From: Methanococcoides methylutens | Lineage (GTDB): Archaea; Halobacteriota; Methanosarcinia; Methanosarcinales; Methanosarcinaceae | Direction: 5' to 3' | DNA length: 64,000 bases | NCBI RefSeq assembly: GCF_000765475.1 | Contig: NZ_JRHO01000009.1 | Span: 1 to 64,000, forward strand | Shown: positions 50,293 through 57,285 of the stretch, in pieces | Numbering within the stretch: the stretch's first letter is position 1 | Layout: every line of letters starts with the position of its first letter | The notes under the pieces: model-generated | Told to the model about the DNA's origin: nothing | The model's database searches: none | The model's input: only the letters and a program-made list of their open reading frames with translations | Position numbers and translations under genes: made by a program

Positions 50293-50901
50293 ATGACTCT
50301 CAATATTGCAGTTCTTGTCTCTGGACGCGGTTCGAACCTGCAGTCCATTATTGATAACATTGAAAATGGCTATATTCCGGATGCTGCCATCAAAGTGGTT
50401 GTCAGTGATAAAGGGGATGCCTATGCACTTGAGAGGGCTAAAGATAACGGTATTGATGCGGTATTCGTGGATCCTTCGGCATTTGGCGGAAAGAAGGGCT
50501 ATGAGGAAGAGGTTCTTAGGACGCTTGCAAAATATGATATACAGCTGGTTCTCCTTGCAGGATACATGCGTATCATTGGCAGGGATGTAATAGAAGCATA
50601 TAAGAACCGTATGATGAACATCCATCCCGCACTTTTACCATCCTTCATGGGCCTGCATGCACAGAAACAGGCATTTGATTACGGTGTCAAGGTCGCTGGC
50701 TGCACAGTGCATTTCGTCGATGAGGGTATGGACACCGGACCAATAATCCTCCAGAGATGTGTTCCCGTGCTTGAGGGGGACACCGAGGACACTCTTGCAG
50801 GTCGCATCCTGGAACAGGAGCATAAGATCTACCCCGAGGCCGTAAAACTGTTCGCAGAGGACAGATTGAAGGTGGACGGTAGGATCGTATCTATCTTATA
50901 A
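50293..50901 (+). CDS. purN: Phosphoribosylglycinamide formyltransferase, folate-dependent
   Basis: 202 aa. N-terminal VLVSGRGSNLQSIID and the formyl-folate site MNIHPALLPSF, then HFVDEGMDTGPII: all active-site segments (N-H-D) present. Uses 10-formyl-tetrahydrofolate for purine synthesis, in contrast to most archaea, which use formate and ATP (PurT/PurP). First gene of the tetrahydrofolate cluster. GGTGAG precedes ATG by 3 nt. Confidence 0.95.
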   Translation: MTLNIAVLVSGRGSNLQSIIDNIENGYIPDAAIKVVVSDKGDAYALERAKDNGIDAVFVDPSAFGGKKGYEEEVLRTLAKYDIQLVLLAGYMRIIGRDVIEAYKNRMMNIHPALLPSFMGLHAQKQAFDYGVKVAGCTVHFVDEGMDTGPIILQRCVPVLEGDTEDTLAGRILEQEHKIYPEAVKLFAEDRLKVDGRIVSIL

Positions 50902-50947: not shown

Positions 50948-52192
50948 ATGTCTTATATCTCAGATATCGACCCAGAAATTGCCAATGCATTGGAATTGGA
51001 GGCAAATCGCCAGGATTACAAGCTGAACCTTATTGCTTCAGAGAACTACACAAGCCGTGCGGTCATGGAAGCACAGGGTTGCATTATGACCAACAAGTAC
51101 GCAGAAGGTTATTCCGGAAAGCGTTATTATGGTGGTTGTGAATTTGTTGATATTGCAGAGACCCTTGCTATCGAGAGAGCAAAGGAGATCTTTAATGCAG
51201 AACATGTGAACGTCCAGCCACATTCCGGCTCAGGCGCAAATATGGCAGTTTACTTCTCAGTGCTTAAGCCAGGCGACAAGATCATGTCAATGGACCTTTC
51301 CCATGGGGGTCACCTCTCCCACGGAAGTCCTGTAAGCTTCTCCGGCCAGCTCTACAACATCGTACCATATGGTGTTTCCAAAGAGAACGAGATGCTTGAC
51401 TACGATGCACTCATGGAGATGGCAAAGGAAGAGAAGCCACAGATGATCGTTGTAGGAGCTTCCGCATACTCCAGGACCATTGATTTCAAGCGCTTCAGGG
51501 AAATTGCAGATGCTGTCGGGGCATACCTGCTTGCAGATGTTGCACACATCGCAGGTCTGATCGCTGCCGGTGTTCACCCAAACCCATTCCCACATGCTGA
51601 CTTTGTGACCACTACCACACACAAGACCCTCCGTGGTCCAAGGGGTGGAATGGTAATGTGCAAGGAAGAGTATGCAAAAGGGGTCGATAAGGCAGTTTTC
51701 CCGGGAATCCAGGGCGGCCCTCTTATGCACATCATCGCTGCAAAGGCAGTTGCATTCAAGGAAGCACAGAGCGAGGCTTTCAAGAAGGACCAGGAACAGA
51801 CCATAAAGAATGCAAAGGCACTTTGTGCAGCACTTCAGGAGAGAGGCTTTGATATCGTGTCTGAAGGTACTGACAACCACCTTATGCTCCTCAACCTCAA
51901 CAAGTACGACATCACCGGAAAGGATGCAGAGGTCGTCATGAGCAAGGCAGGTATCGTGATCAACAAGAACACCATCCCATTCGAGACCAGAGGTCCATTC
52001 ATCACCAGCGGACTGAGGGCAGGAACACCTGCTTCAACAACCCGTGGAATGAAGGAGCCTGAGATGGTAGAGATCGCTGATTTCTTCGAGACCATCCTCA
52101 ACAACAAGGATGACGACAAGGTTCTTGAAGCAGTCAATGCGGATGCACAGGAACTCTGCAGCCGTTTCCCAATCTACGAGCACTTGAAATAA
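50948..52192 (+). CDS. glyA: Serine hydroxymethyltransferase
   Basis: 414 aa, full length. PLP lysine in [15 protein letters not shown]-terminal [17 protein letters not shown] and [10 protein letters not shown] are canonical. Converts serine and tetrahydrofolate to glycine and methylene-tetrahydrofolate. The bacterial-type N-terminus and neighbours favour H4F over tetrahydromethanopterin as acceptor. Same strand as purN (46 bp) and folD (24 bp). Confidence 0.96.
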
Positions 52193-52216: not shown

Positions 52217-53077
52217 ATGTCTGACGAGGACCAGAACAAGATCATTGATGGAAGAGCTGTTGCAAAGAAAGTGGAAGCTGAAGTTAAGGAAGGAGTTGAG
52301 AAGCTCAAGAGTGAAAAAGGAATCACTCCCGGACTGGCTACCATTCTTGTAGGCGATGACCCTGCATCAAAGATGTATGTGAGGTTAAAACACAAAGCAT
52401 GTGACCGTGTAGGCGTTTATGCAGAGGATCACCCGCTTCCTGAGTCCACGACCCAGGAAGAACTTCTTGACCTTATTAGCAAACTGAACTCAAGGGAAGA
52501 TATCCATGGTATTCTCCTGCAGCTTCCGCTTCCCGCACATCTCAATGAGCAGGAAGCAATGAATGCCATAGATCCTGCAAAGGATGCGGACGGTTTCCAC
52601 CCCTTCAACATGGGCCAGCTTCTCATCGGTATCGAGGAACTTGTACCATGCACCCCAAAGGGTGTAATCCGTGCACTTGAGGAATACAACATTGACATAC
52701 AGGGTAAACATGCGGTGATCGTAGGTCACAGCAATGTGGTCGGAAAACCCATGGCTGCAATGCTTGTGAACAGGAACGCCACTGTTTCCGTGTGCCATGT
52801 GTTCACCGAGGACACCTCAAAGTTCACGAAAGAAGCAGACATCCTTGTGGTCGCCACAGGCGTGAAGCATCTCATCAAGGAAGACATGGTGAAGGAAGGC
52901 GCTGTGATCTTTGATGTTGGTATCACTGAGGAGAACGGTAAGGTCTACGGAGACGTTGACTTTGAGAACGTCATCAAGAAAGCTGCCCTGGTAACCCCGG
53001 TTCCAGGCGGAGTTGGTCCTGTGACCATTTCCATACTCATGCAGCATGTCCTGATGGCAGCACAGAAGACTGCTTAA
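52217..53077 (+). CDS. folD: Methylene-H4F dehydrogenase/methenyl-H4F cyclohydrolase
   Basis: 286 aa. Substrate-side signature [15 protein letters not shown] with the catalytic Lys and [16 protein letters not shown] site [17 protein letters not shown], and [14 protein letters not shown] at the end. Interconverts methylene- and formyl-level tetrahydrofolate, supplying purN. Its stop codon sits in the loop of the following terminator hairpin. Confidence 0.96.
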
Positions 53078-53150: not shown

Positions 53151-54383
53151 ATGGTTGTTGACGTTGACATATGTGGCCTGAAAGTAGGTGATGAGCACCC
53201 CGTACGCTTAATGGGTGTTATAAACTTAAGCCGTGAATCTTTTTACAAGGGGTCTGTGGTAGACGCAGATTCCGTTCTTGATGTTGCTTATAAGATGGTC
53301 AACGATGGGGCTACCATCATTGACCTCGGTGCAAGGTCCACCTGGCCGCTGGCCGATCCCATCACAAAACAGGAAGAATGCGACCGTCTTTTACCTGCGC
53401 TTGAGCTACTGAAGGACAATTTGGATGCTGTGATCTCAGTGGACACTGTGTTCTCGGACATTGCGGAGAAGGCGCTGGAAAAAGGTGCTGACGTCGTCAA
53501 TGACGTTGCAGGGTTTGCAACAGACGGCGGAATGCTGGATGTGGTTGCAGACCACGGCTGCCCGGCTGTTGTCATGGCAGCTGGAAAGCTTCCTGGTGAT
53601 CCGCTGGGAATGGATGCCATCATGCGTTCCCTTGACGACATCCTTGTACGCTCCGAGGAACGTGGAATTGATACTGACCAGCTTATCCTGGACCCTGCCA
53701 TCGGCAAATGGGTGCCTGAAAAACTTCCGATGTACGACCTTGAGACCATCGACCAGTTTGAGCGTCTGAAAGTGTTCGAAAAACCACTTCTTGCAGCCAT
53801 CTCCCGCAAATCGTTCATCGGGGACCTGCTCAACAAACCTGCAACCGAGCGCCTTTACGGCAGTCTGGCAGCAGCAGCTATCGTTGTCCAGAAGGGTGCA
53901 CATATCATCCGAACCCACGACGTGGCAGAGACTCTGGACGTTGTGCAGATCGCAGGGGCCATACGCAGCAGGCAGCCGATGGTTGAAGAGAACGGCTTCG
54001 AGGTCAGTGTGCTGGACATAGCAAATCCTGATGATGCGGCTCTTGCAATGCGGAATATTGGTGTGACAGGCACTGGTTCCACCATCATGAAAGGCAAGAC
54101 CGTGAACCGTGTGCTGAAGATCAGCAACATAACCACAACTGAGGCCCTGATCATCAAGCAGGAGATCCTGGCACGCGGCGGTGATGCAGCGCTTGAACGT
54201 GATGCTGTTTCCCATGAGACCGAGAAGACCGATGTCATTGTAATGGGCACATTGCTCCAGGTCAGGAAACTTGCCGATAAGCTCGAATGCCAGGCAAGGA
54301 ACCTTCCGCTGATATCAAAGATGATCAAAGACGCACTGAAACAGGAATCTGACATTGAATACTCCTATATGAACAAGATATGA
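53151..54383 (+). CDS. folP: Dihydropteroate synthase with C-terminal extension
   Basis: 410 aa. All pterin/pABA-site segments are present: MGVINLSRESF (21-31), ISVDT, VVNDVAG, LILDPAIG, SRKSFIGD and IIRTHDV (about 250-256). The TIM barrel ends near 275, and about 135 extra residues follow (ITTTEALIIKQEILARGGDAAL, then DVIVMGTLLQVRKLADKL), as in the long bacterial type. It should join pABA to the pterin, consistent with H4F-dependent neighbours and a need for pABA. The metV frame starts 7 bp after its stop, so the two are co-transcribed. Confidence 0.88.
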   Translation: MVVDVDICGLKVGDEHPVRLMGVINLSRESFYKGSVVDADSVLDVAYKMVNDGATIIDLGARSTWPLADPITKQEECDRLLPALELLKDNLDAVISVDTVFSDIAEKALEKGADVVNDVAGFATDGGMLDVVADHGCPAVVMAAGKLPGDPLGMDAIMRSLDDILVRSEERGIDTDQLILDPAIGKWVPEKLPMYDLETIDQFERLKVFEKPLLAAISRKSFIGDLLNKPATERLYGSLAAAAIVVQKGAHIIRTHDVAETLDVVQIAGAIRSRQPMVEENGFEVSVLDIANPDDAALAMRNIGVTGTGSTIMKGKTVNRVLKISNITTTEALIIKQEILARGGDAALERDAVSHETEKTDVIVMGTLLQVRKLADKLECQARNLPLISKMIKDALKQESDIEYSYMNKI

Positions 54384-54390
54384 GGGAACC

Positions 54391-55005
54391 ATGATAATCT
54401 CATCTTCCAAACCCTTTAGCGAGATCCTTGACATGCTGGCGGACAAGGAGTCCGTCTTTATCGTAGGCTGCAGCGTATGCGCCGCCAAGCAGCATGTGGG
54501 AGGAGAACCTGAGGTGGAGGAGATGAAATCCAACCTTAAGGATGCCGGAGTAAATGTTATCGGTGGAGTTGTTGCAAAGGCAGCATGCAGTGTTCGCTCA
54601 TGCGAAGCCCTTTAGGAACTTGCACCTGAGATAAAGGATGCCGATGCAGTGCTTGTCATGGCATGCGGAAGCGGTACTTCCAACATCGCACGCTTTGTGG
54701 ATGTGGATGTCTATCCTGCCAACAACACCGATTCCCTGGGTGCCATGGCAGGGGATAAGGTCATCCATCATCTATGTGCCATGTGCGGCCAGTGCACCAT
54801 TGCCCAGTTCGGTGGCGTCTGTCCCACAGCCCAGTGCCCCAAGGAACTTCTCAACGGTCCCTGCGGTGGTTCCATGGATGGCAAGTGTGAGGTGGATCCC
54901 GAGAAGGATTGTGCCTGGGAGCTGATCTACGAGCGCCTTGAGAGGATCGGTCGTCTGGATCTGCTGGAAGAGGTCCGGGATGCGAAGGATCGGCTGGTGA
55001 AGTGA
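54391..55005 (+). CDS. metV: MetV-like zinc protein (MTHFR C-terminal family) with in-frame TAG, probable pyrrolysine
   Basis: 204 codons read as one frame. Codon 75 (54613-54615) is TAG; everything else is open. Residues 1-74 carry the N-terminal Cys pair (VGCSVCAAKQHVGGEPEVEEM) and the 70-residue KAACSVRSCEAL stretch. Residues 76-204 carry DAVLVMACGSG, the zinc/Fe-S-type cysteines CAMCGQC and CPTAQCPKELLNGPCGGS, and the family ending DCAWELIYERLERIG. The two sides together give one ordinary-length MetV. MetV is the zinc-binding partner of MetF in acetogen-type methylene-H4F reductase. No metF lies in this window. Alternatives: a nonsense mutation or a sequencing error. There is no ribosome site for restart after the TAG. 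Confidence 0.8.
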
Positions 55006-55140: not shown

Positions 55141-55338
55141 CAGTTGGATGATGTGGACAGATTATATTTATAATGTGACTTAGTTAGAATAGAATACAAC
55201 ATCGTAAAGATGTTAGTGGGAGTTCAGCCAGTCTTGACGGAATAACTGAAGCCCCGTGCCTTGAGGCAGGGTTATACTTTGCTGTTTGTACTATATAAGC
55301 GTAGCTTTGCCTCTGGAGAAATAAATGAGGTACATATA
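55141..55338 (+). promoter_or_regulatory. Promoter and conserved 5' leader of the protease gene (copy 1)
   Basis: CAGTTGGATGATGTGGACA then GATTATATTTATA (upstream element and TATA box), followed by a long leader. Shared with copy 2 (58725-58929): hairpin ACATC-GTAAA-GATGT (55199-55213), GGAGTTCA, TGAGGCA (55262-55268), complementary TGCCTC (55308-55313), CTGGAG and the ribosome site GAGGTA before ATG. Between these blocks the sequence has diverged, so the conserved parts are likely functional. Confidence 0.7.
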
Positions 55339-56430
55339 ATGAAAAGTATGCTAAAGATAAGCCTGGGCATAATGATTATAAGCATTTTGCTCACTGGGTT
55401 CGCATGGGCAGTATCATCCGATTCCATCCAAGATGAATCTTTTGAAGAATATTATTATTTCCCGGATTATGGGTCAAGTACATTTGATTCCCTAAAAGAA
55501 GATTCAAAGTTGATCGAATCTCGAGGAACCGTACCTGTAATTACAGAAGATAAAGAAAAGATGGAATGGTTAGATACAATTTGGGAGTGCATTAACAATT
55601 CGGGAAAAGAGCTTCATCCCTACATGAAAGAAAATGGGGGACCATTGATCGGCTTCGGTGTTGACTATGGCGGATATATATTTGTTGAGTTTGATGAAGA
55701 AATAAAAGATGTTGATAAATATACGATTGACAAATTCTACAACATAATAAATGCAAATGCAAAAAAAGTAGAAATATTTGATGTTCCAGTAGTTTTCACA
55801 AAAGGAGAAAAAGTGTATCTTGACTCACGCACTTCTATATGGAATAACCTAATTGGTGGTATACAGATAGTAAGATCAACTGGTACGCCCTCAACGCTCT
55901 CATTTGCTGCAGAAGACAGTAGTGGTACAAAAGGATTTGTAATTTCCGGACATGCAGCATTTAATGCAGGTGGTGTTGGTGCAAGCATTTATCAACCTAC
56001 CACTGCAACAAAAGTAGGTGAAGTCAATTATCTCACAGGTCATTTTGCAGATGCTGCATGGGTGGAAGCAAGTAATGTCGAAGATAACATTTATTATACC
56101 GACGTGGATGATGTTAGAGATGTACGCTCATATTATGATCCTTCCTTAGGGTCCAAAGTTTACAAGTCAGGAATAGCCACTGGTCTGACATCCGGTTATG
56201 TTAATAAGAGATATTTTAGTGTAACCCATCCCAATTTTGGAACTCTTTATGACCAATTCCGTGCAGATTATGATTCAGCTGGCGGCGATAGCGGTGCCCC
56301 TATATTTTCGAAGTATGGGGATCAGGTAATAATTCATGGTGTACACTGGGGCAGCACTGACACAAACACCTATTTCTCACCAATTAGTGGTGTTGAGTTG
56401 GATTTAGATGTAACTCCTTTGACTAGCTGA
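55339..56430 (+). CDS. Secreted trypsin-like (S1) protease with propeptide
   Basis: 363 aa from ATG 55339 (GAGGTA 7 nt upstream). Signal peptide about 1-25. Propeptide-like region about 30-165. Chymotrypsin-like domain from about 170: His205 in FVISGHAAF, Asp238 in GHFADAAWVEA and Ser318 in GGDSGAPIF, a complete catalytic triad similar to streptogrisin/alpha-lytic-type enzymes. No cysteines flank the His as in TAGHC. The N-terminal domain is homologous by eye to most of the next gene's product. Extracellular; substrate unknown. Confidence 0.82.
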   Translation: MKSMLKISLGIMIISILLTGFAWAVSSDSIQDESFEEYYYFPDYGSSTFDSLKEDSKLIESRGTVPVITEDKEKMEWLDTIWECINNSGKELHPYMKENGGPLIGFGVDYGGYIFVEFDEEIKDVDKYTIDKFYNIINANAKKVEIFDVPVVFTKGEKVYLDSRTSIWNNLIGGIQIVRSTGTPSTLSFAAEDSSGTKGFVISGHAAFNAGGVGASIYQPTTATKVGEVNYLTGHFADAAWVEASNVEDNIYYTDVDDVRDVRSYYDPSLGSKVYKSGIATGLTSGYVNKRYFSVTHPNFGTLYDQFRADYDSAGGDSGAPIFSKYGDQVIIHGVHWGSTDTNTYFSPISGVELDLDVTPLTS

Positions 56431-56559: not shown

Positions 56560-57285
56560 ATGATCAAAAATAGTAAAATTGGAAAAATCATAATAATCAT
56601 ATTGTTCTTATCTATTTCATCAGTAATTGTTGTAAGTGCGGAGGATAGAGAATTGAGCAATTCTGAATATATGGGCGAAGATATGCCCTTACCTGACTAT
56701 GGCCCGGAGATTTTTGAAGAAGCTAAAAGTGATCCGTCGTTTATAGCTGCCTATGGGACAATGCCTGTAATTAAGGAGAAGAGTGAAAAAATAAGATGGA
56801 CGGATCTGCTTGGCCATACTAAGGATAGGGAACTTGACCCTTTTTTTGCTGAGTTTGGAGGGGCGGTAATAGGTTACGGGGTCAGCATCAACGGATATTT
56901 ATCTGTGGATATGGACATAGAAAACCCGGAAAAAGTAAATGAGTCCGTAATTGATGAAATATATCAGACGATAGACAGGCACTTTGAACAGGAAGCAGGC
57001 ATAAATGAAGTGCCGGTTATATTTGAATGGGGGGAACGGGTTATTCTGGATGAAGGAGTCGCAGCTGCCCCTTCGCCAGGTAATGAAGATATTAAGGTGG
57101 TAGATGATGATGGAAATGTTATAACCTATACCAAAGATGAAGCATATTTCGACGAAGATGGAAATCTTGTGATCATAGACAATGAAACAACACAGGAAGA
57201 ACCCGGGACAAACAAGCAAACACCAGGTTTCACTTCAATAATGCTCATTATCGGACTGTTGTTATCGGCAAGGGGTAGAAAGTGA
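56560..57285 (+). CDS. Surface protein resembling the protease propeptide, with PGF-CTERM-like tail
   Basis: 241 aa. Signal peptide 1-26. Residues about 35-165 share spacing and words with the protease's N-terminal region: PDYGxxxFxxxKxD, GTxPVIxExxEKxxW, FGGxxIGYGV versus NGGPLIGFGV, and VPVIFxxGERVxLD versus VPVVFTKGEKVYLD. A DDDGNVITYTKDEAYFDEDG segment and a Glu/Thr linker lead to TPGFTSIMLIIGLLLSARGRK-type C-terminus: PGF motif, hydrophobic helix, basic end, as in archaeosortase substrates. No protease domain. May be a tethered inhibitor or chaperone of the neighbouring protease (inference). Confidence 0.72.
   Translation: MIKNSKIGKIIIIILFLSISSVIVVSAEDRELSNSEYMGEDMPLPDYGPEIFEEAKSDPSFIAAYGTMPVIKEKSEKIRWTDLLGHTKDRELDPFFAEFGGAVIGYGVSINGYLSVDMDIENPEKVNESVIDEIYQTIDRHFEQEAGINEVPVIFEWGERVILDEGVAAAPSPGNEDIKVVDDDGNVITYTKDEAYFDEDGNLVIIDNETTQEEPGTNKQTPGFTSIMLIIGLLLSARGRK

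Follow-up and report, generated by a model that had tools for sequence, protein, structure and literature searches.

How is the single TAG codon within the metV gene of Methanococcoides methylutens read? The gene lies in the window analyzed here, the first 64,000 nucleotides of contig NZ_JRHO01000009.1, where it is the final gene of a purN-glyA-folD-folP-metV cluster (Table 1). An earlier note made from the sequence alone described a frame of 204 codons that is broken by nothing but one TAG, and suggested that this codon encodes pyrrolysine (Pyl) in a MetV-like protein outside methylamine metabolism. The coordinates, and the motifs that it quoted on both sides of the TAG, are correct. The protein matches PF12225 and is encoded among folate genes, in keeping with the proposed assignment.

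Table 1. Positions of metV, its in-frame TAG, neighboring genes and other loci discussed in the text. Plain numbers are positions in the window; other locations carry locus (L), genome (G) or contig (C) labels.
Feature	Location	Strand	Remarks
purN-like formyltransferase	50293..50901	+	PF00551
glyA, serine hydroxymethyltransferase	50948..52192	+	
folD, methylene-THF dehydrogenase/cyclohydrolase	52217..53077	+	
folP-like dihydropteroate synthase with C-terminal extension	53151..54383	+	TIGR01496, PF00809; 7 bases between its end and metV
metV, MetV-type (FeS/Zn) methylene-tetrahydrofolate reductase subunit	54391..55005	+	204 residues if the TAG encodes an amino acid
In-frame TAG, residue 75, predicted pyrrolysine	54613..54615	+	the three closest relatives have GAG (Glu) here
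Open 129 codons 3' of the TAG	54616..55002	+	contains PF12225 and most invariant cysteines
ORF downstream of metV	55261-56430		no Pfam match
ORF downstream of metV	56560-57285		no Pfam match
metF	C9:70091-70972		
UvrD/PD-(D/E)XK protein	L097:2163-5219		1018 aa with TAG read through; UvrD_C domain spans the TAG
PAS-GAF-histidine kinase	L097:12636-14588		650 aa; two TAGs within domains
Large Ig-repeat protein	L098:10963-16533		1856 aa; no domain matched past the TAG
Response regulator-PAS-histidine kinase	L049:13550-14953		TAG; Tyr in relative G004
pylB	L020:8329-9591	−	ends in TAG
MtmB-family protein	L087 (G000:C5:118412-119761)		PF05369, positions 2-448
Repeated-block loci	L094 (G006:C35:12000-31900), L095 (G002), L093 (G009)		

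The metV frame comprises 74 codons from the ATG, the TAG, a further 129 codons and then a TGA. Under a Markov null with matching composition, an open run of 129 codons after the TAG would arise by chance in around 1% of cases. The PF12225 match (MTHFR C-terminal, the MetV domain) covers residues 108-200 with a value of 2e-34 and is wholly downstream of the TAG. The invariant cysteines of MetV fall on both sides, with Cys27, Cys30 and Cys66 before the TAG and the remainder after it, so that each half alone would lack some of them. Both the domain and the conserved cysteines are thus present. The protein is 97% identical over 204 amino acids to that of the relative G004, and 20 of the 20 residues flanking the TAG are identical on either side. 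The TAG therefore lies within a conserved reading frame, as expected of a pyrrolysine-containing protein. There is no second copy of metV in this genome. An AlphaFold model of MetV was of moderate quality (mean pLDDT 79.5) and was used for local secondary structure only; it predicts a helix of residues 68-77 around position 75, with a pLDDT of about 85 there. No solved MetV structure was matched by sequence, and there was no convincing fold match. The one profile match, to a designed repeat protein, was due to chance.

A search of the genome for pyl genes, proposed in the earlier note, found all of them. The genes pylS, pylB, pylC and pylD score above curated cut-offs (TIGR02367, TIGR03912, TIGR03910, TIGR03909 and TIGR03911), and tRNA-Pyl with the anticodon CUA adjoins pylS. 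One in-frame TAG is present in mttB and in each of two mtbB genes of this genome, and these provide a positive control for readthrough. The in-frame TAGs of the methylamine methyltransferases MtmB, MtbB and MttB are read by the same pylTSBCD system. In those enzymes Pyl is a conserved catalytic residue, whereas the MetV site varies and has a TAG in this genome only. L087 encodes a full-length protein of the MtmB family with no in-frame TAG, and is therefore apparently a pyrrolysine-free relative of the monomethylamine methyltransferases. Further pieces of mtmB sit at contig ends.

The codon at position 75 was compared across the family. A metV match was found in 107 of 112 Methanosarcinaceae genomes, including all 86 of good quality. 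The check for TAG at the same codon in relatives gave a negative answer: none of the other 106 genomes with a match has it. A TAA occurs in the metV match of G110, and several stops interrupt a weak second match in G035. The 15 metV copies in 10 other genomes of the genus are all free of stops. Methanococcoides vulcani, M. seepicolus and M. alaskense were among the congeners retrieved with a MetV protein, which places the window in this genus. At codon 75, GAG is found in the three closest copies (G004, G003 and G009b) as well as in G005, M. vulcani and one copy of G006; ATG, CGG and CAG occur in other members of the genus. Residue 75 is thus E, M, R or Q within the genus, and mainly V, I or L in the sister genera, with a few M or T. 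Given the GAG of the closest relatives, Glu was the ancestral residue and one G-to-T substitution accounts for the TAG. The proposal that Pyl might stand in for Lys in a lysine-rich helix is not supported, since Lys was never found at this position in the Methanosarcinaceae loci examined. The site is not one of functionally conserved Pyl, for which TAG would be present at the same position in relatives. The absence of TAG from the metV genes of relatives, together with the variability of the site, indicates that Pyl in MetV would be specific to this species and probably neutral.

The sequence of metV points to purifying selection on the frame. On each side of the TAG, dN/dS is close to 0.05. 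With codon 75 excluded, the codons unique to this species comprise eight synonymous and two conservative amino acid changes (I54V and D193E), and no second lesion was found in the frame. Yet a very recent loss of metV would leave the same signal, because selection would then mostly have acted before the TAG arose; gene loss is in this sense compatible with the low dN/dS. A species-specific TAG at a variable position of a gene under purifying selection is the pattern of neutral Pyl insertion of the Thg1 type, discussed below.

We have also examined how TAG is used elsewhere in this genome, in a sample of 464 kb (C9:1-264000 and C14:1-200000) corresponding to about 18% of the total. The count covered ORFs of 120 amino acids or more, read with the standard code and not overlapping, and the numbers are small: of 376 in all, 224 end in TGA, 147 in TAA and just 5 in TAG. 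All five of the latter remain open for 131-712 more codons, compared with a median of 14 past TAA or TGA, and in four of them Pfam domains are found on both sides of the TAG. No ORF ends in TAG among 168 from a 200 kb stretch of G004. An initial survey for internal stops gave many stop-containing alignments, mostly at ends or in ORFs of low identity. Under a stricter filter the 139 ORFs orthologous with G004 contain two well-flanked TAGs (in metV and a histidine kinase) and no TAA or TGA. In this genome TAG serves much more as a sense codon than as a stop, and in the sampled part it is nearly free of duty as a terminator. No long ORF in the sample clearly ends in TAG, and in metV we thus see one example of a TAG that acts like any other sense codon. 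Some UAG codons may still terminate, for example that of pylB, where readthrough adds about 40 residues overlapping pylC. Published work treats the pylB TAG of M. mazei, M. acetivorans and M. burtonii as a stop (PMC2933860).

The explanation that we consider very probable is one of neutral drift from GAG to TAG with the UAG read as Pyl. A single-base change would have placed UAG at codon 75 of the sole metV gene. The codon would be decoded by tRNA-Pyl(CUA), to which PylS attaches the Pyl that PylBCD produce, giving a full-length MetV of 204 residues with Pyl at a tolerant position in the predicted helix. The mutation would have survived because UAG rarely or never serves as a terminator here, behaving instead as an ordinary sense codon. 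Pyl75 would be close to neutral and have no catalytic role. We infer both the incorporation of Pyl into MetV and its neutrality. The observations that support them are the intact frame, the pyl genes, the uniqueness of the TAG among relatives, the purifying selection and the near-absence of TAG terminators in the sample. The TAG is known from one assembly, and on this genome evidence Pyl in MetV is a well supported prediction. The original suggestion of pyrrolysine thus remains the best reading, given the complete pyl genes, the absence of further damage to the frame and the lack of another metV.

The same TAG could arise in other ways. It might be a recent nonsense mutation at which UAG terminates, making metV a fresh pseudogene, with MetF acting without MetV or the step being dispensable. 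The restriction of the TAG to one species would fit with this, as would the location of metF apart from metV, where it could act alone, and selection prior to the mutation would yield the same low dN/dS. But the pyl machinery is present, TAG is read through in other genes of the genome, metV has acquired no second lesion, and MetV is retained in every good-quality genome of the family. Loss of the gene is therefore unlikely. Even less likely is an error of sequencing or assembly, the true codon being GAG as in the nearest relatives. The TAG is one substitution from that codon and comes from a single assembly, but a miscalled base would be unlikely to yield an in-frame TAG in a genome of 15 contigs that is 99.87% complete, and the sample contains several other in-frame TAGs with no comparable TAA or TGA.

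Might the UAG have been selected? Pyl75 could be functional in MetV, or the codon could couple the supply of MetV, and hence folate C1 metabolism, to the supply of Pyl and growth on methylamines. The gene belongs to C1 metabolism for biosynthesis, and the availability of Pyl could change with the substrate. Set against this are the species-specific TAG at a variable position, the presence of TAG in unrelated genes and the lack of RNA structure beyond chance 3' of the TAG (z = −0.32), and we think a selected role slightly less probable still than an error in the sequence. A lysine-like or catalytic role of Pyl75 is not supported. The stronger proposal, that UAG is fully reassigned to Pyl here and that the metV UAG ties folate C1 metabolism to Pyl supply and methylamine growth, is on a par with sequence error, i.e. 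very improbable. The least probable alternative is a split MetV, with an N-terminal piece of 74 residues and a second, C-terminal piece whose translation restarts at GTG 54649. This in-frame GTG is 12 codons past the TAG and opens an ORF of 118 residues, and PF12225 lies entirely on the downstream side. However, the division of the invariant cysteines between the two pieces is against it, no relative has a split MetV, and visual inspection showed no strong ribosome site but just an AAGGA that precedes the GTG by 10 bases. Neutral drift with decoding as Pyl consequently remains our preferred reading.

There is a close parallel in the tRNA-His guanylyltransferase Thg1 of M. acetivorans, in which a TAG is found in that species only and Pyl is inessential for activity (PMC2933860). 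The neutral evolution of Pyl codons has been discussed, including that of Thg1 (PMC3639795), and both papers describe the Thg1 case of Heinemann et al. 2009. What Thg1 and metV share is an in-frame TAG that is confined to one species, a methanogen encoding the pyl genes, and that lies outside methylamine metabolism. They differ in protein and genus, and the reading of the TAG as Pyl has been reported for Thg1 but is a prediction for MetV.

Few candidate pyrrolysine proteins are listed outside methylamine metabolism, and MetV adds to them a subunit of a biosynthetic enzyme. Of more use is the finding that TAG has almost no terminator function in the sampled part of the genome. In 2025 Kivenson et al. 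reportedly described in Science that some archaea use all TAG codons as pyrrolysine. The present genome resembles such archaea in that TAG terminators are very scarce and several genes with unrelated functions contain a TAG. Under standard annotation these genes would be cut short or labeled as pseudogenes; those affected here would be metV, the UvrD/PD-(D/E)XK helicase-nuclease, two histidine kinases and the Ig-repeat protein.

The setting of metV is that of a known system. The protein belongs to the same family as the MetV of the MetVF type II methylene-THF reductases of acetogens and Methanosarcinaceae (PMC8760232, PMC9012536). In acetogens MetF has MetV as its partner, a protein that contains FeS and zinc (PMC8760232). 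The published tetrahydrofolate cluster of the Methanosarcinaceae, which has a biosynthetic role, shares purN, glyA, folD, folP and metV with that described here and also includes metF (PMC9012536). In MetVF systems metF is normally adjacent to metV, whereas here it lies ~15 kb downstream, and residue 75 is encoded by TAG.

Two ORFs without a Pfam match follow metV in the window. The start of the nearer one resembles a signal peptide, and visual inspection shows a GDSGAP motif like that of chymotrypsin-like serine proteases. Homologues sit inside repeated metV blocks of other species. Several Methanococcoides genomes have such a block, which comprises the 3' part of folP, metV and genes resembling secreted proteases, and there are four copies of metV in G006 and two each in G002 and G009. 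The repeated block may mark a hotspot for insertion or duplication adjoining metV.
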